From assembly GCA_017557535.1 (NCBI GenBank), contig JAFYYM010000070.1, positions 62,001-126,000 of the forward strand: a stretch of 64,000 nucleotides of DNA. Direction: 5' to 3'. Positions within the stretch are counted from its first letter, which is position 1, and each line of letters starts with the position of its first letter. Shown one piece after another: positions 10,739-28,839 of the stretch. The notes under the pieces are model-generated. The model had not been told where the DNA came from. It was given only the letters and a program-made list of their open reading frames with translations, and searched no databases. Both the position numbers and the translations under genes were made by a program. This stretch comes from Bacteroidales bacterium. Lineage in GTDB: Bacteria; Bacteroidota; Bacteroidia; Bacteroidales; UBA932.

Positions 10739-11759
10739 CAATAACATGCTTTTTGAATATCTTGACAGCACGCCGTATCAGCGTCTTGTAACGGCTGCGC
10801 AGATCAACACATAAAAAGTATCTTTTTTGGAAAGTCTTGAGATCAGGACATTTGAGCACCGTCTCAATCATGGCTCGCTCATAGTAAGTATAAATCCTCG
10901 GAGCCGCCCTGTAATCATCCTCCACATCCTCGAAGAATGCCTTCATGGCGGCATACTTTTCTTCGTTGAGCCGCAAATCCATCTCCTTCCACATTCTGAA
11001 ACGCTTGATTTCATCAGGAGGGATACCTCTCTCGCGAAGAGCGACAGAAAGTGCTTTGAAGGCATCTATGTGATACCACTCATAGCCCTTTGAGGCGGAA
11101 ATGGAATTCTTATGCTTGAAATAATGGTAAAAAGATCCGAAGAAAACATAGCACTTTCCTTGAATGGCCTCCGAGAGATATACGAAATAGTTATCTTCCA
11201 CACCCTTGATCAAGGGGAATCTAATGTCATTGTCTCTCAAGAAATCCGCCTTGTAAAGCCGACACCATACGACCGGGAAGAAGCCGCCCTGCAAAAGTAA
11301 TGGGGAATAATAAGCAGGTTCTCCCTCAACAAAAGACTTTTGAGACGCTTTCTTTGGAGGTCTCCCGTCATCATGCTCTATATACCAATGACCATTAATC
11401 ACCACACCCAGTCCCGTGGAGACAGCATGGGAGTGCATATCCTCCAAATAATCCGGGTCTATCCAATCATCGGAATCCATGAAATAGATGTAATCTCCCT
11501 TCGCTTCATCCATCGCCGCGTTACGGGCATATGCGGGGCCATGGTTCCCCTTAAGGGTAATAACCCTAACTCGTGAATCCATGCCGGAATATTCCTTTAG
11601 AATATCGACGGAGTCGTCTGTGCTTCCATCGTCAGCGCAAATCACCTCGAAGCTTTGCAACGTCTGCGCTAAAACCGAGTCCAAACACCGGCGCAAATAC
11701 TTCCCTGTGTTGTGGACGGGAATTAAAACAGATACATCAATATGCTCATTCATGGTCAC
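10692..11759 (-). CDS. Family 2 glycosyltransferase, 3' end running into tRNA-Leu
   Basis: 355 aa, GT-A fold. The N-terminal strand VSVLIPVHNTGKYLRRCLDS, the nucleotide site ADDGSTDD and the metal motif FMDSDDW are intact. It is clearly paralogous to the two GT2 proteins at 24363-25337 and 26243-27277. The last 15 residues (RVKGLEPIRRSTRS and the one before) are the antisense reading of the tRNA-Leu gene, so the native C-terminus has probably been replaced. Its start overlaps the stop of the previous gene (ATGA). Acceptor and donor unknown. Last gene of the glycan operon. Confidence 0.85.
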   Translation of the reverse strand: MTMNEHIDVSVLIPVHNTGKYLRRCLDSVLAQTLQSFEVICADDGSTDDSVDILKEYSGMDSRVRVITLKGNHGPAYARNAAMDEAKGDYIYFMDSDDWIDPDYLEDMHSHAVSTGLGVVINGHWYIEHDDGRPPKKASQKSFVEGEPAYYSPLLLQGGFFPVVWCRLYKADFLRDNDIRFPLIKGVEDNYFVYLSEAIQGKCYVFFGSFYHYFKHKNSISASKGYEWYHIDAFKALSVALRERGIPPDEIKRFRMWKEMDLRLNEEKYAAMKAFFEDVEDDYRAAPRIYTYYERAMIETVLKCPDLKTFQKRYFLCVDLRSRYKTLIRRAVKIFKKHVIVRVKGLEPIRRSTRS

Positions 11760-12694
11760 TTCTTCTTCAATCGTCGAATCATCTTAATACTATTCCTCGT
11801 TATCCTCCTGAACAGCGTTTCCTTCTCAAAATAGCTCCTGAGCTCAAGATAGTTCCCTTCCGCCTTAAGCCGGCCATCAAGGCTTTCAAGGATACGACTT
11901 ACAAAAAAAGACAAGGAACCTCCTTTGTAGCATCTCCGTCGACCTTTCCATGTCAAGACAAGCTCTGATACACGTTTGACAGATTCTTTATCCGTGAAGA
12001 ACGTGACGTAGGCATCTTTTGGTGGCTGCCACCCTGCCTCCGGGACAAAGAACACGTACTTGTAATAACAATTCCAGGCAAGTTTTATTATCCGATGGTA
12101 AAAAACCTTGGCGCCGCCCAGATCCGGTTCATCTTCTCCTGGCCGCAGTAATAAAGCATTCATTCCCTCAATGTATCTGATCCCCTCAAGTGCCACTAAA
12201 TCCGCCGCGCGGCGTGACATCCCATGTCCCAAGAAAAATGTATATGGATAGCATTCCCCTTCCACGCCCGGGAAGTAACTGACCGTCACGCTCTTACCAT
12301 AATATGCAAGGGTAGATACGCGATGGGCACCATCCAGCAGGACATGGTCCTTACCGATAGGAACAATGGACACATCCGGTTTGAAATCACTAGTCTCAAA
12401 GCTATCAATCAGGGCGTCAAAGGCCTTGAAATGGGCAGCGAAACTGCTTTTCACCTGCTCCTGGCCCCACTCCTTACCAAGAGGGACCAACGCTCGGATG
12501 TTCTCATAATACACCTTTCTAGCCAACCGTGGCCTGACCTTCCTGTTTCTTATATAATACAGTTTGGCAAACAGGTCAAAACGGAGAGGAGTCAACAACT
12601 CCGCGGCTGGCAGAGAAAGAACCTCATACTCGTAATCCCGGAGATGATACTCCTCCACCCAATGTGGCTGAATCAGATCAAGAGCATCGCTCAT
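11756..12694 (-). CDS. ParB/sulfiredoxin-fold-like protein of the glycan locus
   Basis: 312 aa, no signal peptide or membrane helix. The central VPIGKDHVLLDGAHRVSTLA (residues 112-130) with Asp121-Gly-Ala-His124-Arg125 resembles the phosphate-binding DGxHR motif of the ParB/Srx fold, which is found in partition proteins, sulfiredoxin and some small-molecule kinases. The rest I do not recognise; the C-terminal third is basic. It lies between the UDP-xylose synthase (4 bp) and the terminal GT2 (ATGA overlap), so a role in precursor or glycan modification, perhaps phosphorylation, is possible but inferred from context only. Confidence 0.5.
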   Translation of the reverse strand: MSDALDLIQPHWVEEYHLRDYEYEVLSLPAAELLTPLRFDLFAKLYYIRNRKVRPRLARKVYYENIRALVPLGKEWGQEQVKSSFAAHFKAFDALIDSFETSDFKPDVSIVPIGKDHVLLDGAHRVSTLAYYGKSVTVSYFPGVEGECYPYTFFLGHGMSRRAADLVALEGIRYIEGMNALLLRPGEDEPDLGGAKVFYHRIIKLAWNCYYKYVFFVPEAGWQPPKDAYVTFFTDKESVKRVSELVLTWKGRRRCYKGGSLSFFVSRILESLDGRLKAEGNYLELRSYFEKETLFRRITRNSIKMIRRLKKK

Positions 12695-12698
12695 AAGG

Positions 12699-13637
12699 TC
12701 ATTGAAAAAGAACCTGGCGGAAATACGTTATAACCTCGTCAAGGCCCTCATCCAATGAGACTTTAGGCTCCCATCCGAGCTCTTTCTTGGCGAGTGTGAT
12801 GTCCGGCCTACGCATTTTGGGATCATCAGCGGGGAGAGGTCTGAACACTATCTTGCTCTTGCCACCCACTTTCGAAAGGACTTTCTCCGCCAGCTCGAGC
12901 ATTGTGAACTCACCGGGGTTTCCAAGGTTCACTGGACCAGTGAATCCGGCGGGAGTCGCCATCATCTTGATCATACCCTCGACAAGATCCGACACGTACT
13001 GGAATGACCGTGTCTGGCTTCCATCCCCATAAATCGTGATGTCCTCACCCTTTAAAGCCTGAACCACGAAATTTGATACGACTCGGCCATCATTAACAGC
13101 CATTCTTGGACCATAGGTGTTGAATATCCTTATCACCTTGACATCAACCCCATGAATTCTGTGATAATCAAAACAAAGGGACTCCGCGCAACGCTTACCC
13201 TCATCATAGCAAGACCTTATGCCGATAGGATTGACATTACCCCAATAGCCTTCCTGCTGAGGATGTTCAACCGGATCCCCGTAAACCTCTGAAGTGGAAG
13301 CCTGAAGGATCTTGGCTTTTGTCCTTTTCGCCAAGCCAAGCATATTAAAAGTCCCGAAAACCGAGGTCTTAGTTGTCTGAATCGGGTCATATTGATAGAA
13401 AACGGGAGAAGCAGGGCAGGCCAGGTTGTATATCTCATCAATCTCGGCACGGTACGGCTCAGTGACATCATGACGGACAAGCTCAAAACCAGGATGGCCG
13501 ATAAGGTGCCAGACATTCTTCTTGGAACCGCTATAGTAATTGTCAAGGCAGATAACGGCGTTACCTTCATTGACAAGACGCTCGCAAAGGTGCGAACCTA
13601 TAAAACCGGCACCGCCGGTAACCAGAATCTGTTTCAT
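12699..13637 (-). CDS. UDP-glucuronate decarboxylase (UDP-xylose synthase)
   Basis: 312-aa extended SDR enzyme converting UDP-glucuronate to UDP-xylose. It shows the NAD-binding [18 protein letters not shown] at 4-21, the UXS-type [12 protein letters not shown] segment, the catalytic [10 protein letters not shown] and YDEGKR (YxxxK), and [10 protein letters not shown]. These distinguish it from dTDP-glucose dehydratases and UDP-Glc 4-epimerases. No UDP-glucose dehydrogenase is in the window, so UDP-GlcA must be made elsewhere. It overlaps the preceding GT2 by 4 bp (ATGA). It implies a xylose residue in the glycan. Confidence 0.9.
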
Positions 13638-14350
13638 TTCCTAATCATTTTTAGCCGTTCCCGAAGAATGGAGGCGTAGTCTTTGAACTCGGTCTCCCGG
13701 TTCGTCTTCCCGAAGTTTGAGTTATGAATGCGCCTGTCAGTGGAGACCATATCCAGCTTCTTTATAATAAAGCCATTGGCGTCCATCTTCGTCGACCATT
13801 CTATTATTTCCCCTGTCTTCCTGGACTCAGAGAAAGGCCCGATAACATCGAAAACCGACCTCCGGATCAGGATCGCACCCGTAAACAATCCGTAATATGG
13901 CTCCGGACGAACAAATGTTCCAGGCATCTGACCGATCTCGGGTGATATGAAATCCTTCACCATTGCCTGCACAGCCGACACTTCAGGATCCGCCTCAATC
14001 ACAGAGAACAGGGCTCTCAACGCTCCCTCACGCATGACATCGTCATGATCCATGAAAAGGATATAATCACCTTTAGCGGTGGCCAAACCGGTGTTCTTCG
14101 CCGCCACCTGACCCTTGCATACGGGATGGGATATGACCGTGCAACCGTGGCTGGACGCTAAAGCGACGGTATCATCGGTCGATCCGTCATCGACAACGAT
14201 GATCTCCTTCGGAACATCCTGGCGGTTAAGACTATCTATAGCCTCACGGAGATAATTGACCCCGTTTTTGACCGGGATTATGATTGAGACAAGCTTTGAC
14301 AAGGGTGATGTGGTATTTAAACGACCGCTAAAATAGTGAAAAAAAGACAA
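13634..14350 (-). CDS. Family 2 glycosyltransferase
   Basis: 238 aa. The GT-A core includes [33 protein letters not shown] and the DxD-like LFMDHDDVM. It is shorter than the other GT2 proteins of the locus and stops soon after the acceptor-side helix. The first 19 residues precede the conserved strand and may be partly untranslated; the ATG at 14348-14350 is the only ATG before it. Substrates unknown. Translationally coupled to the UDP-xylose synthase, which makes a xylosyl donor a reasonable guess. Confidence 0.82.
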
Positions 14351-14359
14351 TCATTAGCC

Positions 14360-16753
14360 CTAAAGCTTGCGATAAATGCAAGTATTATCGATTTGAGCCA
14401 ATCCCAAAGAATCAGGCTCCGGAATGCTTTCCCTCTTCAAATCATCAGAGACAACAAGGAAGCCTCCTTTTTCAAGGGAAGCCGAAAGCTTGGTCTGGAC
14501 CTCGCGCATGGCATCCTCTTCAAAGAACTTGATGACATTGCGGCACAAGATCAGATCGAAACCACCCGGATAATCATCAGACAGGAGATTCTGGTGCCGG
14601 AAGCGAGGAATCTCACGCAGACGGGAGGATATAAGCAACTTGAGCCTGCCGATTCTCTCATTTTCTTCAGGGAGATATGTCTCCACATCATGACGGTATT
14701 CCGATGGAATCTCTTTGATGATTTCCAACGGATAGATTCCTTTGCTGGCTTTGTCAATCAGCTGGAGATTATAGTCCGTAGCCAGCAGATCTATCTTCCC
14801 GGCCGGAAGGAAATCAAGCAATACCATGAGTAAGCTGTAAACTTCCTTTCCGTCGGAGCATCCGGCACACCAGATTCGAACCTTATCCTTTGAGGTGTCT
14901 TGGAAAGCCTCCCGGCAGACCTCTCTCAACCGTAGCCATATACCTCCCCGGAAGAATTTGGAACCCAGGAAAGTAAGGCTTCTCCTCAACTTCGACATGC
15001 GCTCCTCATCTGAAGCCACAAATGCATAATAGCTGTCAAGTGAAAAGTATCCGCTATCTAGCGCATGTCTGCAGAGTCGCGTGGATACCTGACCAGGTTC
15101 GTAAAACTTTAACTCAGGAATTATTGCCTCGAACCTTCTGGCGGCATGCCTGTTCCGGAGAAAGGGATTATTGAGCATTAACCATGGCAATACCTTCGCC
15201 TTCCAAAGTTCTTTGCAACTATCCTTGGAGGTGTCGTGTTTCTTCTGGGATTTGAAATCCATCGGATTGTCCCATGCATCGCAATTACTGAGCGACACGG
15301 CATGGTTGCTATTGGCGTCAAATCCCGCCCGGGCATTATGATGAGCGGCGCATCCTAGAATCAGGTGCTGGACTCTCTGGTATTCTCCTCCAAGCTTGAA
15401 CCCGATTCCTGTTCTCACCTCCCCCGAGGGACGCTCCTCACCGGATAGCCATCCATTATAAGAAGCCTCGCAATTGTCTATTGTAACGGGGGCGATAGGA
15501 CCGAGAGTGCTTTTCGTGTACAAGTCGAAACCGTCATCAATATTATGGGAAGCTTTGCATGAATAGAAACCATTCCCTTCCCCTACAGAAAGTTTAGCCC
15601 CAAAACCGTCGGCGTTTCGGCGCACACTGTCACAATTGTCATGCGAAAAACACCCCTCAATTCTGTTACGGGAAGGCCACTCATTCTTGGAAACTCCTGG
15701 GTATGAGCATATTAAAATACCCGTATCGCCATTATGGGAGGCTTCGCACGCCTTTATCAGATTATCCGAGCCGCAGACAAACAACCCGCAAGAAGGGGCA
15801 TTCCGGAAAACTATTCCTTCAACAATCCAATGATGCCCCCTCAACACCATAGCAGGGAGTTTGATGCCAAAGCCTGACCCATCGATCACAGCCTTCCCAG
15901 AATGCTCAGCCCGCAGGATTATCGGCCTTGAAGGCTCTCCGCAAGATGATTCAGGAATATAATAGGGACCTCCTTTGTAAACTCCGTCAGGAAGAACGAT
16001 CTCATTCCCTGGAGCCGCATGGAGTATGGCGGACGCCAGGTCCGCTGGATCGCTATCGGCATAGGACACAGCCGAAGCCAAAAGAGAGCGTCCGAACGGA
16101 TAGTCCGGGATATGGTTCCGGATGGTTCCTTCAGGGGTCCGACTAAGTTTTCCCGGGCCTGTCTCGAATTGGATATCAGAGACCCTGACCTTTATATCCC
16201 CGGCAATTGCGAATCCCACATAAAACCGTTTCCTGTCCTGTTTCAACAAGAAATCATGCCCAGGGAAGATGATAGTCTCAATTTGGTCTCCGAAAGCCAT
16301 GGATGCCTTGAACCCTTCGTCTGTCTTTTCCAATTGGAAGCGCCTTTTGTCCCCACTCTTCAGGGCATCCTCGTGATACTGTGTGGGGAAAAGCCTGGAT
16401 GGATCCAATATCCTATGTCCGCCTCGGCGCAGGGCTTTATGATTGGTATACCCTCCGACCACACGGACCCCACAGGAATAGTTCCTACCATCCACTGAAC
16501 GGAAACGCCCGACCAACAGGTGGTTGCGATAGCAGGATTTATTAGAAGGATTCTCCACGGTGTCCACAACCATGATGCCATATCCAGACTGGAAATCACC
16601 CTCAGACGCATCCTCTATCTCAAAAGTGGCAGAGATTGAGAAATTCTCCTTCCGAGGGTCAATTTCAGCATATGAGAACTTGAAGCTGTCCTGCGAGTCC
16701 GCAAGTTTACTCCTGTCCCCATCCCCCAAAACTATCTTATTCCATGTTATCAT
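14360..16753 (-). CDS. PL9-like beta-helix fused to a CheR-type methyltransferase
   Basis: 797 aa from the ATG at 16751-16753, which overlaps the previous stop by 17 bp; an in-frame ATG 39 bp earlier is less likely. Three parts are visible: (1) residues 1-205, a beta-sandwich-like region; (2) about 215-510, a right-handed beta-helix in which NADGFGAKLS and NIDDGFDLYTKS (near 385-415) match the PL9 pectate-lyase signature; (3) about 545-797, a complete CheR: a helical domain with LTFLGSKFFRGG, then the SAM site IWCAGCSDGKEVYSL from 627, LLATDYN, and FDLILCRNVIKFF. The Glu-Glu usual in CheR's CSxGEE is Lys-Glu here. There is no signal peptide, although PL9 enzymes are normally secreted. Function unknown; uronate cleavage or binding coupled to carboxyl methylation is one possibility. 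Confidence 0.75.
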   Translation of the reverse strand: MITWNKIVLGDGDRSKLADSQDSFKFSYAEIDPRKENFSISATFEIEDASEGDFQSGYGIMVVDTVENPSNKSCYRNHLLVGRFRSVDGRNYSCGVRVVGGYTNHKALRRGGHRILDPSRLFPTQYHEDALKSGDKRRFQLEKTDEGFKASMAFGDQIETIIFPGHDFLLKQDRKRFYVGFAIAGDIKVRVSDIQFETGPGKLSRTPEGTIRNHIPDYPFGRSLLASAVSYADSDPADLASAILHAAPGNEIVLPDGVYKGGPYYIPESSCGEPSRPIILRAEHSGKAVIDGSGFGIKLPAMVLRGHHWIVEGIVFRNAPSCGLFVCGSDNLIKACEASHNGDTGILICSYPGVSKNEWPSRNRIEGCFSHDNCDSVRRNADGFGAKLSVGEGNGFYSCKASHNIDDGFDLYTKSTLGPIAPVTIDNCEASYNGWLSGEERPSGEVRTGIGFKLGGEYQRVQHLILGCAAHHNARAGFDANSNHAVSLSNCDAWDNPMDFKSQKKHDTSKDSCKELWKAKVLPWLMLNNPFLRNRHAARRFEAIIPELKFYEPGQVSTRLCRHALDSGYFSLDSYYAFVASDEERMSKLRRSLTFLGSKFFRGGIWLRLREVCREAFQDTSKDKVRIWCAGCSDGKEVYSLLMVLLDFLPAGKIDLLATDYNLQLIDKASKGIYPLEIIKEIPSEYRHDVETYLPEENERIGRLKLLISSRLREIPRFRHQNLLSDDYPGGFDLILCRNVIKFFEEDAMREVQTKLSASLEKGGFLVVSDDLKRESIPEPDSLGLAQIDNTCIYRKL

Positions 16754-18341
16754 TCTTGTCGCACAAATACACAAATATGATATCTGTATCACACAACAGA
16801 TCCATGGAATAACCTCTCTCCTTTATCAACGCCGCCACTTTCTGGGACGATGAACCCCGGGAAGCCCAATACAGGAACTGATCAGGCAACTCCGGCAACA
16901 TCCCATTGGAGGGAAACCGACAAACAGGGAAAACCGAGGACTGGTCGCTTAACATATAAGCGCTATAATAAGCGTTGGAATTGATGTGTGGATGATAATG
17001 CACGACAGCATCCAGGTCACTATAATCAGAAACTAACTCGATCGAGGGCTTATAATCCTCGTAAACATATTCCACCATTCTTCGGTGGAATGAAATGAAC
17101 ACACCTGCCAAAACAAGGACGCAGGCGATTCTGTATACCAGCTTGGACGCGCGATGATTCCTGGCCACCTTGTCGAAAAGCGACCAGATCAAGATCACCA
17201 CCAGGAAGTACAAGAAAGAAAGATACCTGATGTAAAGAAAACCTCCGATTCCGCAGAAAAGCCAGTAAGCGATCATTATACCCACAAGCACCCAAAAGAA
17301 GCCGTCGTTCAGCCGGGAAAGATTCTTCCTAGCCGAAAAGAACAAAAACGCCAATAAAACGACTTCTATCACCGTAAGATATGGTGAGCCAGAAACATTA
17401 TCTCCGAAAGGCAGAGCTGATTGAATCATGGCGTTCAGCTTATCCATCCAAGATGAGTCCACGACAAAAGAGGCGTGTTGAGCTTCAGTGCTATTACCTT
17501 TGACAGAGTAGAAAGTGAGATTAAACAACAACTTGAACAAAGGAGTCTCCTTCCATACATAATAGAGGCCGACGACTGTCACAGGGAGAAAATAATAAAG
17601 AGACTGAGCATACCGCTTCCGGGCAATCAAGCCAACTGTGAAGAAGATTACCAAGGCCCCACCTAAAACAAAGATAAGCTCGGAATTCTTAAACGCGAGA
17701 TACAGCAACAGGAACGCTACCGCCTCGACAAGCAGGTTCTTCTTGTGCGAAGTACTGTTCCACATAAGCTTATGTAAGACCAATACTGCGAGGAACAGCA
17801 AAAAAGTCCAGGAATAGAAGCGGCAAAAAACCGCCAATCCCATAACCAAGGGGGTGAATCCCCACATGGTGACAGCTAACAGTGATGTCCGTCGATCAAG
17901 CTCCAGGCAGCCAGCCATGAAATAGAACAAAAGGAACTGAAACAGGATCCACACAAATACATTGAAGCAGATGCAAATCCATTTCGGCGGATTACCATTT
18001 CCGAAGCAAGTCTCTAGAACGTTGATAATCCACATGTAATTCCTGTCGAAGAAGAATTTCTTGACAGACTTAAAGAACGGCAAATCCAGCACACTCTCAC
18101 CTTCTTCCAAGGTGAACCGTTTCTTCAATTCTCCCACTGGCACCCATTCTTCCGCTTTCCACATCGGGCTGTCAACTAAATAATCAATATGATCTTTGTG
18201 ATCATTAATATTCTGGGTATACTCGAACGTGTAATACTCATCAATAAAAAAACTGGCCTTCATCGAAGCCCAGTAAAGCATCGCGCCACATTGAAGGGCG
18301 ACTATAACCGTGAGGATCAGATATGAAAGCTTACGGGGCAT
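16737..18341 (-). CDS. GT-C type membrane glycosyltransferase (paralogue 1)
   Basis: 534 aa with about ten membrane helices. After the first helix comes the acidic loop FFIDEYYTFEYTQNIN (Asp34, Glu35), matching the catalytic-Asp position of GT39/GT83-type enzymes that use polyprenyl-phosphate sugars. A long first extracytoplasmic loop (residues 45-100) and a C-terminal soluble tail follow. It is paralogous to the preceding gene along its whole length. The adjacent DPM-type GT2 could supply the lipid-linked sugar. Sugar transfer would take place on the outer face of the inner membrane. Confidence 0.65.
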   Translation of the reverse strand: MPRKLSYLILTVIVALQCGAMLYWASMKASFFIDEYYTFEYTQNINDHKDHIDYLVDSPMWKAEEWVPVGELKKRFTLEEGESVLDLPFFKSVKKFFFDRNYMWIINVLETCFGNGNPPKWICICFNVFVWILFQFLLFYFMAGCLELDRRTSLLAVTMWGFTPLVMGLAVFCRFYSWTFLLFLAVLVLHKLMWNSTSHKKNLLVEAVAFLLLYLAFKNSELIFVLGGALVIFFTVGLIARKRYAQSLYYFLPVTVVGLYYVWKETPLFKLLFNLTFYSVKGNSTEAQHASFVVDSSWMDKLNAMIQSALPFGDNVSGSPYLTVIEVVLLAFLFFSARKNLSRLNDGFFWVLVGIMIAYWLFCGIGGFLYIRYLSFLYFLVVILIWSLFDKVARNHRASKLVYRIACVLVLAGVFISFHRRMVEYVYEDYKPSIELVSDYSDLDAVVHYHPHINSNAYYSAYMLSDQSSVFPVCRFPSNGMLPELPDQFLYWASRGSSSQKVAALIKERGYSMDLLCDTDIIFVYLCDKNDNME

Positions 18342-18343
18342 GA

Positions 18344-19981
18344 CTACTTCTTTGTCTTTTCCTCAAAAACATACACCGTGGTCACCCCCCATTCAATTAT
18401 GTCCACCTCCTTATATCCTTGATGTCTAATCCGCATCAAATCATTCATAGGCGTCATGGTGTTGTCAACCCAAAAAAGGAATGTTCTGGGCAAATCCGGC
18501 AAGGTCATGCCAAAATGATTATAGAAAGAATCGTTTGGAGAATAAGATTTCAAAGGATAGATTCTGGTGGAGGGGTCAAGGAAATCCACGCTCTCATAAA
18601 GCACGAAAAGAGAGGAATAATCCACCAATGCATCTGTTCCTTTATACTTACCCAATTTCTCGAATACCGGTTGCCATCCATCGTACACATAATCGATGTT
18701 TTTTCTGAAGAATGGAAGGACGGCCACCGCCAATACCAGACAGAGGGCGGCTTTACGGATCAGGCCTTCGGCCCTATGACCCCGAACCAATTTGTCGAAA
18801 ACGGTCCAGAAAAGGATCGCCCCAAGCAAGAACATGAAAGAGAGATACCTGCTCTTAGCAATTCCGCATATCCCACAGAAAATCCAGAAGACAACAGCCA
18901 TCCCGAGAAGGACCAGCACAAACCCATCGAAACGCCTCGGAATCTTCTTCTTCGCGGTGACTACCGTGACGAAAAGAACGATCAGACAGACAACTGCGAT
19001 TATAAGAAGAACAGGTGATCCAAACACCGAGTCACCAAACTGCTTGACTGAATTGAACAAAGCATCAGTCTTGTCTGCCCAGGATGATGTCAACATGAAT
19101 TTGACATGTTTTGACACCAGACTTCTCATTCCCCCATGATAAATGGCGAGGTGTTCGGCTGGATGGAGTACAACCTTGATGAACTTGATAGCGTGGGGCA
19201 TCAGAAGCGCCGCTCCAACCACAGGCAGGAAGTAATAAATGGACTGGACATATCTTTTCCGGACAACCAATGCGATAGTGAAGAAGAGAAACAGAGATCC
19301 TCCAAGCACAAACATCAATTCGGAATTCCTGAAAGCGAGATACAATGCCAGCATGGCGGCGATCTCGCAAACTATATTCCTCATGTGAGATGAACTGTCC
19401 CACATTATTCTGTGTAATACAATGGTGACAAGGAACAATAGCATGGTCCAAGCATAGAAACGACAGAAAACCGCAAGTCCCAAAACCAAAGGGCAAAAAC
19501 CCCACATCGCTACAGCGAGTAACGCGGAGCGCCGGTCAATGCCAAGACACCCAGCCATGAAAAAGAATAGGAGGAACTGGGTGAGAGCCAAGATCGCTAT
19601 GTTGAATAATATGCAGATCCATTTCGGAGCCTCATCTTTTCCGAAGACAGTCTCAAGGAAATTTATTATCCACATGTAATTCTTGTCCTTGAAGAACACC
19701 CCTATGGATTTGGAGAAAGGAATATCCAACACACTCTCCCCCTTCTCGAGTGTGAACCTGGTCTTCAAATCCCCGACATCCATCCATTGATTATTCTTCC
19801 ACTTGGGACTTAGAGGCATGTACTCAATATTGCCCTCCCGGTGATTGATGCTCTGCGCGTATTCGAAAGTATACCACTCGTCAATATAATAGTAAACCTT
19901 CCTTGAAGCCCAAAAGAGCATGACGCCGCACTGAAGCACGACTATCACCAATAGGATAATCCTTGAAAGACGTTTACTCAT
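18344..19981 (-). CDS. GT-C type membrane glycosyltransferase (paralogue 2)
   Basis: 545 aa from the ATG at 19979-19981, which overlaps the GT4 stop (ATGA); a longer frame adds only five residues. Same architecture as its neighbour: YYIDEWYTFEYAQSIN (Asp34, Glu35) after the first helix, GESVLDIPFSKSI and NYMWIINFLETVFG in the first loop, a FMAGCLGIDRRSALLAVAMW helix pair, then further membrane segments. The two genes are 2 bp apart and evidently arose by tandem duplication with divergence. Substrates unknown. Confidence 0.65.
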   Translation of the reverse strand: MSKRLSRIILLVIVVLQCGVMLFWASRKVYYYIDEWYTFEYAQSINHREGNIEYMPLSPKWKNNQWMDVGDLKTRFTLEKGESVLDIPFSKSIGVFFKDKNYMWIINFLETVFGKDEAPKWICILFNIAILALTQFLLFFFMAGCLGIDRRSALLAVAMWGFCPLVLGLAVFCRFYAWTMLLFLVTIVLHRIMWDSSSHMRNIVCEIAAMLALYLAFRNSELMFVLGGSLFLFFTIALVVRKRYVQSIYYFLPVVGAALLMPHAIKFIKVVLHPAEHLAIYHGGMRSLVSKHVKFMLTSSWADKTDALFNSVKQFGDSVFGSPVLLIIAVVCLIVLFVTVVTAKKKIPRRFDGFVLVLLGMAVVFWIFCGICGIAKSRYLSFMFLLGAILFWTVFDKLVRGHRAEGLIRKAALCLVLAVAVLPFFRKNIDYVYDGWQPVFEKLGKYKGTDALVDYSSLFVLYESVDFLDPSTRIYPLKSYSPNDSFYNHFGMTLPDLPRTFLFWVDNTMTPMNDLMRIRHQGYKEVDIIEWGVTTVYVFEEKTKK

Positions 19982-21027
19982 AACTCTTTCTCCCATAAAG
20001 GGATAACCCGTTCTATCGAGAATCGTTCCGAGAACATGGTAGCCTTCGCTGACAGGCTCTCCCTCAATCGCTGATCCTCTGCCAGACGAGACATGGCATC
20101 CGAAAGAGCCAACTCATCACCAACAGGAACCATAAGGCAACTATCGGAATCACCGAGCAGTTCCCCGGCGCTCTCAAAAGAGGTTGTCACACACGGAAGT
20201 CCCATCATCATAGACTCCAGGAGAGCGTTAGGCAAACCTTCATAATCTGAAGATAGGACGAACATCTCAGCATCCTTGACCGCCTCATGTATATCCCCCA
20301 CGAATCCTTCAAGGAAAACCTTACCTTCAAGTGACAAATCCCTGATCAAGCACCGCAATTCTTCCTCTTGTGGACCTTTGCCATAGATATGAAGGGTGTG
20401 GTCCGGATGACCTTCCGAGAACCGTGAGAAAGCCCGGATGAGAAGCGGGAAGTTCTTTTGTGGTTTCAGACGCCCTGAGGCCACAATCCTTTGACTATGA
20501 CCTTCCGCTTTACAAGTCACCTCAACGGGATTCGGCACAATGACCCCTTTCTCGCGTATCTTCTTCGGGAACATGTCGCGGATTGTTTCTGACTGGAAAA
20601 CAACCTTATCAGCACGACGATATGCCTGACAAGCGGCGAAGAAATGCCGCTCTCCCTTTTTCTTTGGGTTATTCCTCTCGGACATGATCTTTCTCCCTCC
20701 CCCAATCGCGAAAGCATTGAGAAGATTCGGCTTGTTCAGGAAACTCAAGGTCACATCCGGATGGAAAAACAAACGGACAAAGGTAAGGTAGAGATAACCG
20801 TAAACAATTGATATGAAGTACTTGACCGGAACCCTTGAGGGCGCCCTGAGATCAAACAGCCCCGCATTATCAACCTTAACCTTGCCGGAAAGGGGATATG
20901 GATTGGAGGAAACTGAAAAAGGCATGATATGAACCTCATGCCTCTCAGCCAACGAACTGGCCACCCTGGTGGCGATCCGCTCCGCTCCACCTCCCTCAAG
21001 AGATGATATGAGAATAAGGATTCTCAT
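19978..21027 (-). CDS. Family 4 glycosyltransferase
   Basis: 349 aa, GT-B fold, retaining. The N-terminal ILISSLEGGGAERIATRVAS is a GT4 glycine-rich loop. The C-terminal Rossmann half contains IVASGRLKPQKNFPLLIRAF, LEGFVGDIHEAVKDAEMFVL and the EX7E-type SSDYEGLPNALLESMMMGLP. Cytoplasmic or membrane-associated, adding one hexose-type residue to the growing glycan. It begins 3 bp after the DPM-type GT2. Confidence 0.88.
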   Translation of the reverse strand: MRILILISSLEGGGAERIATRVASSLAERHEVHIMPFSVSSNPYPLSGKVKVDNAGLFDLRAPSRVPVKYFISIVYGYLYLTFVRLFFHPDVTLSFLNKPNLLNAFAIGGGRKIMSERNNPKKKGERHFFAACQAYRRADKVVFQSETIRDMFPKKIREKGVIVPNPVEVTCKAEGHSQRIVASGRLKPQKNFPLLIRAFSRFSEGHPDHTLHIYGKGPQEEELRCLIRDLSLEGKVFLEGFVGDIHEAVKDAEMFVLSSDYEGLPNALLESMMMGLPCVTTSFESAGELLGDSDSCLMVPVGDELALSDAMSRLAEDQRLRESLSAKATMFSERFSIERVIPLWEKEL

Positions 21028-21030
21028 AAA

Positions 21031-21759
21031 CTACAGTTCAGTGACACCCTTCACGACGTATGTGGACGGATGCTCTTTCACTGAACCCTTTCTAATGGCA
21101 TACATGTCCACTAAACCGTGGAAAATCCTGGATAATGAATGATACTTCGATTCGCCGTTTATTCTCCTGTGGTGAGAGACTTCAATCTCCCCCACCTTAC
21201 ATCCCCGGCTAATCATAATGGCCGGGATAAAGCGATGTTGTCCTTCTACAAGATCAAGCCCCTCAAGGGCTTCCCTTCTAAAAACCTTCAAGGTGCATCC
21301 TGAGTCATGAATGCCGTCATGAAGGCAAGCCTGCCTGAGAAAATATGCCATTCTCATGAGCAGACGCCTGAAAGGATTATCACGACGGACCTTACGCCAC
21401 CCACAGACCACATCCAGATTGTTATCGATAAGATACCTGACCATCCTTGGAATATCTCCGGGAACATTCTGTCCATCACCGTCTAGAGCGGCGACAATGT
21501 CATTAGCCGCCATTTTGAATCCACAGTCTAACGCTGCCGTCTGACCATAGTTATGGTCAAATTCCACATATTTCAAAGGATGAAGCCCCCGGCAGATTTC
21601 CTTCGTCGAGTCCGAGGAGCCATCGTTGACAATGATTATCTCATACCTGCAGAAATGAGTTTCACACATTTGCTTGATGTCCTCGAACAAGCCGGGAATG
21701 CTGGCGGCCTCGTCCTTGACGGGAATCACAACTGATATGGATAAAGAATCAATCTGCAT
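21031..21759 (-). CDS. Polyprenyl-phosphate glycosyltransferase (DPM/ArnC type GT2)
   Basis: 242 aa. ISVVIPVKDEAASIPGLFED, VNDGSSDSTKEIC, FDHNYGQTAALDCGF, ALDGDGQ and RRINGESKYH are the diagnostic set of dolichyl/undecaprenyl-phosphate sugar synthases. It lacks the two C-terminal membrane helices of ArnC-type enzymes. It probably makes undecaprenyl-phosphate-sugar, the donor used by GT-C enzymes, two of which lie downstream. A 75-bp gap separates it from the radical SAM gene. Confidence 0.85.
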   Translation of the reverse strand: MQIDSLSISVVIPVKDEAASIPGLFEDIKQMCETHFCRYEIIIVNDGSSDSTKEICRGLHPLKYVEFDHNYGQTAALDCGFKMAANDIVAALDGDGQNVPGDIPRMVRYLIDNNLDVVCGWRKVRRDNPFRRLLMRMAYFLRQACLHDGIHDSGCTLKVFRREALEGLDLVEGQHRFIPAIMISRGCKVGEIEVSHHRRINGESKYHSLSRIFHGLVDMYAIRKGSVKEHPSTYVVKGVTEL

Positions 21760-21834: not shown

Positions 21835-22899
21835 TTACGGTTTTCGGATATTCGTGAAATAATTGCAGGAGCAATAACCCGCCTGACACAAGGTTGGAGA
21901 AGACAGCGGAGAGAACCCATTATCCGTTATCTCTCCCATCTTGAACGAGCCTGGAGGAGACAAGACAGGGCAACGCCATACTTCACCATCCGGAGAGACA
22001 GAAAAGCTGTTTTGGCCAGCGTCACAATAAAAGCCTCGCGGATGGAATTTGCCATCCGAGTCTTCTAGGGACTCGCCTAGCTGGGCGATATTCGCGAAGC
22101 CTGTCCTGGATCCATCAGAATAATAGACCCTCAGCATCTTCCCGCAGGCTTTCGAGCCTTTCAGATCCTCCAACACGCTCTGTGACAGTCTCGTGTCGAA
22201 ATTCCTCAATACTATAGGATTAACCCGGACCCGAGACCGCCGGAAAGACGATCCCATCTCCTTATAAAAACACCAGCTATCATCGTCAATCATCGGGATT
22301 CCTATGGACAAAAACGCATTATTCTTACTGGTCAACCAACGACAGCCTGACATTGATGCGGCTTTAATCGCCATCAGCCTTATATTCAAACTTGTTGGAG
22401 ACAGAGAAGGAATCAGCTTTGATACTTTCCCGAGGAATTCTTCCGGGGAAGTGTAATCCCTGTAATAAGAAGCTAGGATCTTGAATGTCCTGTTCCTTTT
22501 GCCTTTGAACAGATCCATCAAAGAGGAAAGATACTCATGCCCTTTGGAAAAGTTCGTGGTCACATAGATTATGATATGACCATTGAAGCGACAATCGACA
22601 AACCTCCGGAGAATCTCGGGGAAATCCCTCAAAAAGGTGACTTCCCCTCCTATCAGATATAATTCGACGACCCTTCTGGAAGAGACCTTGGACTCAATAA
22701 ACCTGACGATACTCTCCGCCACCGCTCCCCTTTTGTCAGGACTCTCACTCCTGAAGGCCTGGACATGCTTCTCTCGAGAGCCCTGGATACAGAAATCACA
22801 TTGATAGTTGCACAACGCGGTGACTTTCCATCTTATGACGAGGGAGCCGAGAAAAGAACGGGAGAGGTTAACGATCCTCTTGACATGATTAGCGCGCAT
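21835..22899 (-). CDS. Radical SAM protein with SPASM-like C-terminus
   Basis: 354 aa. Cys30, Cys34 and Cys37 (CNYQCDFC) form the [4Fe-4S] site for SAM cleavage. LYLIGGEVTFL is the following GGE strand. The C-terminal 100 residues hold CGKML, FYCDAGQNSFSVSPDGEVWRC and CQAGYCSCNYF, a Cys pattern like the auxiliary-cluster SPASM/twitch domains of peptide-modifying enzymes. The substrate is not evident: no precursor peptide is adjacent, but a PqqD-like protein lies five genes upstream. It could modify a peptide, or a sugar as some SPASM proteins do. Confidence 0.8.
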   Translation of the reverse strand: MRANHVKRIVNLSRSFLGSLVIRWKVTALCNYQCDFCIQGSREKHVQAFRSESPDKRGAVAESIVRFIESKVSSRRVVELYLIGGEVTFLRDFPEILRRFVDCRFNGHIIIYVTTNFSKGHEYLSSLMDLFKGKRNRTFKILASYYRDYTSPEEFLGKVSKLIPSLSPTSLNIRLMAIKAASMSGCRWLTSKNNAFLSIGIPMIDDDSWCFYKEMGSSFRRSRVRVNPIVLRNFDTRLSQSVLEDLKGSKACGKMLRVYYSDGSRTGFANIAQLGESLEDSDGKFHPRGFYCDAGQNSFSVSPDGEVWRCPVLSPPGSFKMGEITDNGFSPLSSPTLCQAGYCSCNYFTNIRKP

Positions 22900-27283: not shown

Positions 27284-27706
27284 CTACTCCGGTTTCCAGC
27301 CTTCATCCACATCAACATCATGAATCGGGTCAGCGAACAGAAGCTCCTGGACATCTTGGTATGCGGTGCAGACCGGGATGAAATCACTCTCCTCTGCGAT
27401 AGCCGGGTCGATCACGGCAGGTCTGGAAGAAGTCTCCTCCTTGGGCACTATAATCTCAAATTCGACCAACGAAGCGATGAACTTCTCGAGGGCAGCCTCA
27501 AAACCATCCGGGATCCCAGGCAACTGAATAGCGGCTGAGAGGACATCCCCAGTTGAGGATCCTTCTTGAAGATTCTCATAAATCGCGGTTCCGAAACCAT
27601 TCATACCGTAGTACATACCGGTCGCGGAATTAATGACGATGGCTGTCCCATCCGTTATATCGGCGAACATTTTCGCATCGTTGAGTTGGTAATTACGTGA
27701 TTCCAT
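27284..27706 (-). CDS. PqqD-like protein with conserved-looking acidic tail
   Basis: 140 aa. Residues 1-90 have the PqqD winged-helix pattern: INSATGMYYGMNGFGTAIYENL followed by an acidic, helical stretch and VEFEIIVPKEE. PqqD domains (RiPP recognition elements) bind leader peptides for radical SAM and other maturases. Residues 91-125 look like a flexible linker, and the end (DPIHDVDVDEGWKPE, 126-140) is acidic with His and Trp. Whether this tail is a substrate or a docking peptide is not known. It is 29 bp downstream of the HprK-like kinase gene and probably works with it. Confidence 0.75.
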   Translation of the reverse strand: MESRNYQLNDAKMFADITDGTAIVINSATGMYYGMNGFGTAIYENLQEGSSTGDVLSAAIQLPGIPDGFEAALEKFIASLVEFEIIVPKEETSSRPAVIDPAIAEESDFIPVCTAYQDVQELLFADPIHDVDVDEGWKPE

Positions 27707-27735
27707 ATCGTAAGTCTATAATAATCTGATAATAA

Positions 27736-28839
27736 TCATAAAGAAAGGACCAGGCCCCGCAGACACTCGACATTGGCGAGAATATCAGGGCATAGGGTTA
27801 TCTTGTAGCAATCGAGCCCAGATAACATATTTATGGTCTTCAGTATAAAATCCCTGTCCTTCTGACCTCCCTTGAACCCGTTGAATCCCATCTGGGAAAC
27901 TGTTGAATGCGCGACCTGCACCATCGTCTTACCCTTCTCTGACTGTGAGCACTTGGCGATCGACGGTGAAGTGGCATCCATATTTATCTCTGGGAACAAG
28001 AGAGCCTTTACCGGATAGTGGTCGCGGAAACGATCCCTGTAACCGTATATGTCAAAAATATATTTCCCTTTCCACGGACTGACGCCAAGGAATCTCGCCC
28101 TATCAAGATCGTCATACATCTTTTCATACATCTCCGGAGACAATGTTATGAAAGAATAGATTGGTGAGGCTCTCAATCCCTCGTCAGTCTTATGCAGGAT
28201 CAGATAATCATCCGAGACATAGTCGAAGCCCTTCAGCATCGCTTGTACGGATAGGGTGGACTTGCCCCCGCCTCCTCTCGCGCACATCAGCACACCAGTA
28301 TTCTCCAAACCGACACAAGCTCCATGCACCAAAGATGTTGAAGGCAGATTAAGTATACGGAAAAAGGCCTGGACTATAAAATGACCTTCCTTGAACCAGT
28401 CAGATGGTCCGAGTCCGTCCAAACCATAAAAATATTCGTTATTAAATGAGTAATGAACACCCCACTCCCCTTCGGTGTCGATAGAAGCCATGCCACACAT
28501 GCCACCTTCAGAATCGGGATGGAACAATTCCACCCACCGTGCCGGTTCCTGCTCCTTGTCATCATCAACACCAAGAACCCTGCCGAGGAAATCAGCTGAA
28601 CCGATCTCTCTCCAGAGCCACACCGTCGCATCCGGACAGGATACGGGAGAAGTTACACTCCATGATAACTCCCGATTGATAATATTCTCAAAACCAGGAT
28701 AATATGACAAGACACGAACAGTCTTGACATTCCCCAGATTGACGAATAACTCCTTGATCAAGGGATAGTTACTTGTTATGTATTTCTTCAAGGTTTCCGT
28801 GACGTGACTCGCCACAGAGGCTCCCAAAGCTAAGACCAT
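27736..28839 (-). CDS. HprK-like kinase
   Basis: 367 aa. Residues 165-215 match the HPr kinase core: LVHGACVGLENTGVLMCARG, P-loop GGGGKST at 189-195, then YVSDDYLIL with Asp210-Asp211, where HprK has its catalytic Asp. The N-terminal 160 residues do not resemble the HprK regulatory domain. It is not the phosphotransferase-system enzyme: no HPr gene is nearby, and the PqqD-like partner follows. NCBI families of HprK-related kinases paired with PqqD-type chaperones exist and are uncharacterised. A role as kinase of a peptide, glycan or protein is inference. It has its own promoter. Confidence 0.75.
   Translation of the reverse strand: MVLALGASVASHVTETLKKYITSNYPLIKELFVNLGNVKTVRVLSYYPGFENIINRELSWSVTSPVSCPDATVWLWREIGSADFLGRVLGVDDDKEQEPARWVELFHPDSEGGMCGMASIDTEGEWGVHYSFNNEYFYGLDGLGPSDWFKEGHFIVQAFFRILNLPSTSLVHGACVGLENTGVLMCARGGGGKSTLSVQAMLKGFDYVSDDYLILHKTDEGLRASPIYSFITLSPEMYEKMYDDLDRARFLGVSPWKGKYIFDIYGYRDRFRDHYPVKALLFPEINMDATSPSIAKCSQSEKGKTMVQVAHSTVSQMGFNGFKGGQKDRDFILKTINMLSGLDCYKITLCPDILANVECLRGLVLSL

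Follow-up and report, generated by a model that had tools for sequence, protein, structure and literature searches.

A PL9-type β-helix joined to a CheR-derived methyltransferase in a Bacteroidales glycan locus, a candidate cytoplasmic glycan-modifying enzyme

Introduction

A 64,000-nucleotide stretch of contig JAFYYM010000070.1 (positions 62,001 to 126,000; assembly GCA_017557535.1), from a Bacteroidales bacterium of the GTDB lineage UBA932, carries a glycan locus in which a single gene, here called P0001, joins a β-helix related to PL9 pectate lyases to a methyltransferase derived from CheR. This stretch is referred to as the window, and all coordinates of P0001 and its neighbors are positions within it. 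Polysaccharide lyases are by default assumed to be degradative and, for the most part, secreted, and CheR is assumed to serve chemotaxis. Here, we describe the architecture, distribution and conserved residues of the fusion, and its genetic linkage to a glycosyltransferase (GT) of family GT4.

P0001 is flanked on both sides by genes transcribed in the same direction. Immediately upstream lies a gene for a multi-spanning membrane protein (16737..18341, minus strand), followed by one for a similar protein (18344..19996, minus strand); neither has a Pfam match, and both are GT-C-like by reading only. Homologues of the first also precede the fusion at those other fusion loci that were examined. 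Beyond them are the GT4 gene (19978..21027, minus strand) and a GT2 gene identified by Pfam (21031..21759, minus strand), which we take to be of the polyprenyl-phosphate type. The immediate downstream neighbor is a second GT2 gene assigned by Pfam (13634..14350, minus strand), and next to it is a gene for a UDP-glucuronate decarboxylase (UXS; 12699..13637, minus strand), whose product matches the PDB chains of UDP-glucuronic acid decarboxylase 1 with 417 bits. The earlier description of this region as a glycan locus holds.

The fusion gene and its distribution

P0001 occupies positions 14360..16753 of the minus strand, stop codon included, as one uninterrupted open reading frame (ORF) of 797 aa beginning with an ATG at 16753; an alternative GTG at 16792 would yield 810 aa. 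The 5' end of the gene overlaps the 3' end of the upstream gene at 16737-18341. Three regions can be distinguished. The N-terminal domain (residues 1 to ~230; 16064..16753, minus strand), which contains a KLADSQDS motif, is conserved across ten aligned members, and Pfam and PDB searches with it returned no significant match, so that its fold was not identified by sequence. It is followed by a right-handed β-helix of the PL9/PelX type (residues 236-505; 15239..16048, minus strand), recognized by Pfam, NCBIfam, PDB and profile matches, and by the CheR-derived methyltransferase (residues ~540-797; 14363..15136, minus strand), recognized by Pfam and profile alignments. The motifs NADGFGAKLS, NIDDGFDLYTKS, LTFLGSKFFRGG, IWCAGCSDGKEVYSL and FDLILCRNVIKFF are all present.

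The hydropathy of the first 70 residues, taken as the peak over 15 residues, is 0.49 when translation begins at the ATG and 1.59 if the GTG is used. By the same test 15 relatives, in their longest frames, score between 0.35 and 1.07, and one secreted PL9 protein used for comparison scores 2.70. From its ATG the fusion protein thus agrees with the original prediction in having no signal peptide, and is apparently cytosolic. An ordinary secreted pectinase was ruled out, given the missing signal peptide from the ATG and the position of the gene in a glycan-synthesis operon.

The module consisting of the N-terminal domain and the β-helix was found in 12 of 400 genomes of the genus, that of P0001 included, at 13 loci, two of which belong to one genome (G295). 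Seven of these loci, including that of P0001, have an intact CheR half; in one (G129) the CheR half is broken, in another (G1198) the module runs into a partial GT4, and the remaining four encode the β-helix alone. A search of the family (299 genomes, E 1e-20) with the full protein gave six matches, its own included and one arising only through an ordinary CheR, and a search of the class (395 genomes) gave three, two of them from other genomes and confined to the PL9 part. Those carriers of the CheR fusion that are named (L009-L013, with the CheR half broken in L013) are metagenome genomes assigned to Bacteroidales or Bacteroidia. In a phylogenetic tree the eight fusion rows, the broken one included, share a single origin (support 95/84). 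The ratio of nonsynonymous to synonymous substitution rates (dN/dS) of the CheR half lies between 0.08 and 0.25 in 12 of the 21 pairs formed by the seven intact fusions; the other nine pairs yield none, their synonymous sites being saturated, and several of the 12 come close to saturation. Where the ratio can be computed, these values indicate that the CheR half is under purifying selection.

These observations bear on the explanation that two genes were joined by a frameshift or misassembly, or that the gene is decaying. The broken copy in G129 is the one relative that speaks for it; the same intact architecture in seven genomes of the genus, P0001's own included, and the low dN/dS of the CheR half where computable make it exceedingly improbable. 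Because the join recurs intact in other genomes it is not a product of frameshift or assembly error, and an artefact of that kind, which the original prediction had named as one of two possible objections, was ruled out in favor of a true fusion.

Where the CheR half came from was sought at the order level, where 204 of 393 genomes have a CheR match. None is a close relative outside the fusion, the next best by E-value being 37% identical, and the donor was therefore not identified. Viral contigs searched with the CheR half yielded nothing, and with the β-helix two weak matches.

The β-helix belongs to a clade of signal-less PL9 proteins

The PL9-like nature of the N-terminal part, proposed earlier in part from the NADGFGAKLS motif, is borne out by several matches. 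Pfam reports Beta_helix (1.6e-11) and Chondroitinase B (6.5e-8), and its Pel9A-like β-helix model matches P0001 just under the cut-off (E 3.3e-5, 23.4 bits against 25.2). That cut-off is exceeded by the related proteins of loci L014, L016 and L017, and is not reached by those of L009, L011 and L015. The NCBIfam PelX model matches residues 234-496 (5.5e-36, far below its full-length cut-off), and among PDB entries Pel9A (1ru4) matches residues 236-498 (3.9e-18). With a profile of ten members, the E value is 8e-36 for Pel9A and 3.3e-13 for 5olq, a rhamnogalacturonan lyase.

According to a review (PMC10992409), the calcium sites of Pel9A are Asp209, Asp233 and Asp237, and its catalytic base is Lys273. 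By alignment to 1ru4 and a manual count along the chain, Asp209 corresponds to D382 (15608..15610, minus strand). The stretch DDGFD (15524..15538, minus strand) contains D406, D407 and D410, of which D406 corresponds to Asp233 and D410 to Asp237, and Lys273 corresponds to K453 (15395..15397, minus strand). In a tree of 42 PL9 domains, the 18 members of the group, P0001 included, form one clade (support 100/100) on a long stem. Its PL9 proteins lack a signal peptide and are encoded in glycan loci of three phyla, Bacteroidota, Bacillota and Actinomycetota. The three calcium-binding aspartates and the catalytic lysine are present in 18/18 clade members and in 24/24 other PL9 domains. Near the calcium site the clade has two residues of its own, G385, which is Ala in 23 of the 24 other PL9 domains, and F409, which is Trp in 21 of them. 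An N-terminal hydrophobic stretch occurs in eight of the 11 other PL9 proteins with complete starts (L018, L019, L020, L043, L044, L080, L083, and L092 if an inner start is used) and is missing from the other three (L075, L085 and L088); 13 of the 24 are cut off.

Invariance of the calcium ligands and the lysine across the clade makes it probable that the helix is catalytic. The original prediction had the helix position the chain, a proposal that is not supported as put because it leaves these residues out of account. With PelX and Pel9A the fusion protein thus has in common the β-helix, the calcium ligands and the catalytic lysine; unlike them, its clade has no signal peptide, is encoded in glycan-synthesis operons, occurs fused to GT4 or CheR, and carries G385 and F409. 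Secreted proteins of Treponema and Caldicoprobacter likewise combine the N-terminal domain with the PL9 domain, which suggests an ancestry in pectin degradation. L075 and L085, signal-less PL9 proteins of the same family of bacteria as L015, fall outside the glycan-locus clade and are possibly cytosolic oligogalacturonide lyases.

Linkage of the module to a GT4 glycosyltransferase

Two lineages, Lachnospiraceae (L015, 948 aa) and Coriobacteriaceae (L017, 965 aa), have the module joined to a complete GT4 instead of CheR. A second member from L017's family (L093, 958 aa) has the same GT4 fusion by reading only. At L014 (G1198), 131 residues align to GT4 with 37% identity before the frame ends, and no Pfam GT match is obtained. 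Also in L017's family, a frame at L094:1093-2358 leads from the N-terminal domain into the end of a GT4 with the β-helix missing, and looks like a deletion remnant of a β-helix-GT4 fusion.

The GT4 encoded at 19978-21027, whose relatives are those fused to the β-helix in other phyla, has 44% and 47% identity to the complete GT4s in the L015 and L017 fusions. Of 18 distinct loci (that of P0001, G1245, G1321 [L010], G1223, G212, G1106, G1406, G129, G1198, G1330, G1320, the two of G295, G256, L015, L016, L017 and L093), 17 have a related GT4 either fused to the module or no more than three genes from it, with 37-86% identity where measured. The exception, L010, lies on a 7.5-kb contig that stops short of the position where the GT4 would be; in one of the G295 loci the relative is split over two frames. 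Most other GT4 genes of these stretches have 28-32% identity to the one at 19978-21027. GT4 genes are common in such loci, adjacency alone is therefore weak, and it is the fusions that carry the argument. Together, the GT4 fusion in two lineages and the GT4 relative near 17 of the 18 modules suggest that the module probably works with this GT4.

The nearest characterized GT4s are PglH (6eji, deposited as WlaC, which we take to be the same protein) and PglJ, which, according to the names of the matched entries, act on undecaprenol-linked oligosaccharides. Inside the cytoplasm, the module would thus probably work on a lipid-linked glycan, with a GT4 akin to PglH and PglJ as its partner. Although PglH and PglJ are the closest characterized relatives of the partner, we know of no case in which either is fused to, or works with, a lyase-type β-helix.

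An alternative is that the protein is a cytosolic quality-control or recycling lyase that cuts failed or overlong uronic-acid chains, with the CheR half marking the products or regulating the cut. The full set of PL9 lyase residues is intact, the sequence relatives of the helix are pectate lyases, and a PL11 lyase is encoded in two related loci, as this alternative would have it. Fusing the module directly to a glycosyltransferase, as is seen in two phyla, would, however, set synthesis and destruction against each other in one polypeptide, and the methyltransferase would be left unexplained. We consider a recycling lyase unlikely.

The CheR-derived half

The SAM-binding (S-adenosylmethionine-binding) domain of CheR is recognized by Pfam at residues 615-768 (E 3.1e-32, 112 bits against a cut-off of 27), and the CheR structure 5ftw matches residues 547-795 (2.1e-25). 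Pfam CheR_N has no match in P0001 at E values up to 1. Profile alignments, made against CheRs of known structure and 15 CheRs from Bacteroidales, span both the N-terminal subdomain and the SAM domain, so that of the two CheR domains claimed earlier the SAM-binding one is found by Pfam and the N-terminal one through profile alignments only.

The key catalytic residues of CheR are R98 and Y235 (PMC3447774). Alignment to 1af7, in which residue numbers were reckoned by hand to differ by 10 from the chain index, equates Arg98 with R602 (14948..14950, minus strand), which is kept in 7/7 intact fusions, and Tyr235 with F743 (14525..14527, minus strand), which is Phe in all seven. At the latter position 20/20 ordinary CheRs of the same order, taken from the 19 best-scoring loci of the order-level search plus L006, have Tyr. 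The residues E129, D154 and N212, which contact SAM in CheR, are likewise kept in all seven intact fusions. The alignment further reveals a three-residue insertion before a conserved Glu near the C-terminus of CheR; an initial reading that the C-terminal GHSE motif had been replaced was dropped on this account. A change from GEEPYS to GKEVYS was likewise dropped as a diagnostic of the fusion, the first Glu being Gln or Pro in three of the 20 ordinary CheRs. With Phe in place of Tyr235, the C-terminal part is not the plain, complete CheR of the original prediction; its sequence marks it as an enzyme derived from CheR in which the acceptor site has changed.

No MCPsignal match was found in the P0001 genome (95% complete) at E values up to 0.01, and it contains no CheR-domain gene besides the fusion; CheA and CheB were not searched. 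A role in chemotaxis, to which the original prediction had seen no tie, was ruled out on these findings. With CheR (5ftw, 1af7) the fusion shares the SAM-binding domain, the N-terminal subdomain by profile, R98 and the three SAM contacts; it differs in having Phe for Tyr235, a genome without a chemoreceptor match, and a carbohydrate-active β-helix as its partner. In CheR-TPR fusions a CheR domain is likewise joined to another module; there, the modules are TPRs, encoded mostly in signalling clusters, and the proteins with C-terminal TPRs keep both R98 and Y235 (PMC3447774).

Canonical CheR acts on protein glutamates (PMC3447774), and one rival explanation has the CheR half methylate a glutamate in a protein of the assembly complex, such as the GT4 or a membrane GT, when the β-helix binds glycan, in the manner of chemotactic adaptation. 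Retention of Arg98 and of the SAM contacts would fit, whereas the loss of Tyr235, the three-residue insertion before the conserved C-terminal Glu and a genome without an MCPsignal match or other CheR (with the same limit as to CheA and CheB) do not, and we regard this explanation as quite improbable. A second rival, that the CheR half binds SAM without catalysis and serves as a regulatory domain or a scaffold, draws on the Phe in place of Tyr235 in 7/7 fusions and on G129 (L013), where a deletion has broken the CheR half and the β-helix frame is still open. It is set against the dN/dS of 0.08-0.25 in 12 of 21 pairs, the retention of R98 and the SAM contacts, and a separate methyltransferase gene beside the broken copy; we judge it no more probable than glutamate methylation. 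That gene, a Methyltransf_24 member at L013:8148-8999, lies directly upstream of the broken fusion and after a membrane GT-like gene, and this single case is suggestive of a replacement for the broken CheR half. The CheR half would probably methylate the glycan, and the acceptor may be a uronic-acid carboxyl, as the original prediction had it.

A possible role in glycan assembly

The best explanation, which we hold tentatively and with somewhat less than even confidence, is that P0001 encodes a cytoplasmic glycan-modifying enzyme that would apply PL9 chemistry to a lipid-linked uronic-acid glycan and then methylate it from SAM. A PL9 enzyme would have been recruited from pectin breakdown into glycan assembly. 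Its β-helix would bind a uronic-acid residue of the lipid-linked glycan made by the neighboring GT4; Ca2+ would hold the carboxylate while Lys453 removes the C5 proton, leading to C5 epimerization or a controlled elimination. The CheR-derived half would next move the methyl group of SAM onto a carboxylate or hydroxyl of the glycan, before the glycan crosses the membrane. This explanation takes from sequence the architecture, the lack of a signal peptide from the ATG, the intact PL9 residues, the change at Tyr235 with the SAM side kept, the genetic link to GT4, the single origin of the fusion and, where computable, purifying selection. We infer the lipid-linked substrate, its uronic acid, the outcome of the PL9 reaction and the placing of the methyl group on glycan rather than protein. 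The UDP-glucuronate decarboxylase in the locus, the Methyltransf_24 gene beside the broken fusion and the PL11 lyases in two loci are counted in its favor.

Several observations weigh against a glycan-modifying enzyme of this kind. The intact PL9 residues would be expected of a plain lyase to the same degree. Three PL9 proteins outside the clade (L075, L085 and L088) likewise have no signal peptide, and cytosolic location alone is therefore no proof of a biosynthetic role. None of the six loci with a stand-alone β-helix (five of the Bacteroidales family and L016) has a CheR half, which means that the module can fulfil its basic role without methylation. The replacement of Tyr235 by Phe may mean a weak or dead methyltransferase, and PMC3447774 regards CheR-TPR proteins that lack the conserved residues as possibly inactive. 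The dN/dS values are rough because synonymous sites are near saturation in most pairs. Finally, the module is rare: apart from its 12 carriers among the 400 genomes of the genus, in L015's family (250 genomes) 22 genomes match, of which only L015's own does so over the whole module, the other 21 matching little or nothing beyond the PL9 part. In L017's family (140 genomes) three match, namely L017's own, L093 and one remnant, so that the whole module is present in 2/140.

Among the literature matches listed there was neither a CheR-β-helix nor a PL9-GT4 fusion, in line with the earlier statement that no described enzyme of PL9-CheR architecture was known. Multi-module glycan enzymes containing methyltransferases are known with other partners, such as WbdD (PMC3482155) and ORF6 of the Klebsiella pneumoniae O7 locus (PMC11231755). 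These chain terminators are likewise cytoplasmic, with a methyltransferase beside glycan-assembly modules; they combine a kinase and a coiled-coil ruler with another type of methyltransferase, whereas the fusion combines a PL9 β-helix with a CheR-type one.

A more far-reaching form of the proposal strikes us as rather doubtful. A pectin-degrading PL9 enzyme would have been turned inward and become a glycan-assembly enzyme, now found in three phyla, that works as a uronosyl C5-epimerase or processing eliminase complexed with GT4, the epimerase acting at the polymer or oligosaccharide level. In one Bacteroidales lineage a chemotaxis CheR would have lost its catalytic tyrosine and been retooled to methylate the glycan uronate, as the first CheR that we know of with a non-protein substrate. 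If the clade does epimerize or process lipid-linked uronic acids, it would add a new way by which bacteria make the unusual sugars of their surface glycans. The CheR half is a test case for whether a glutamate methyltransferase can be retooled towards sugars. Because fusion and gene order tie this signal-less PL9 clade to a glycan-building GT4, automatic annotation would misplace it.

Other genes of the locus and of related loci

Full-length PL11 rhamnogalacturonan lyase genes occur at L061:4946-6901 (minus strand; G1320) and L062:11512-13467 (plus strand; G295), in each case as the third gene after the stand-alone β-helix in the glycan run. Their RGL11_C matches are 7.5e-136 and 1.9e-137, and by reading they have no signal peptide; with PL11, a further lyase of the degradative type lies within a synthesis locus. 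The run that holds the latter also contains, at L062:14363-15376, a gene similar to TOD1/MUCI70 glycosyltransferases (6.4e-10). The PL11 genes of these two stand-alone loci and the TOD1/MUCI70-like gene of one of them are a hint that the glycan may resemble rhamnogalacturonan.

The locus of P0001 also holds genes for an MBOAT acyltransferase and for an ABC-2 permease; in NCBIfam the permease comes closest to a Wzm model, far below its cut-off, and a Wzt_C ATPase gene is on another contig. Chain terminators of the WbdD type act with a cognate ABC exporter that recognizes the end of the chain. The gene at 21835..22899 (minus strand) encodes a radical SAM protein, relatives of which adjoin the stand-alone β-helix in L061, L062 and L064. 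A neighbor at 11756-12694, ParB-like by reading only, has no Pfam or NCBIfam match; each of the other seven CheR-fusion loci, that of the broken copy among them, has a relative of it.

PqqD-like and HPr-kinase-like genes often accompany peptide-modifying systems. A pair of such genes lies at 27284-28839 in the polysaccharide locus. A tie of the fusion to this pair, and with it a substrate of peptide type, was weighed; the gaps between the genes in the ORF list leave room only for a very small precursor, small ORFs being outside that list. Among the stretches compared, most of which end short of that point, relatives of the pair occur only in L067, from G1223.

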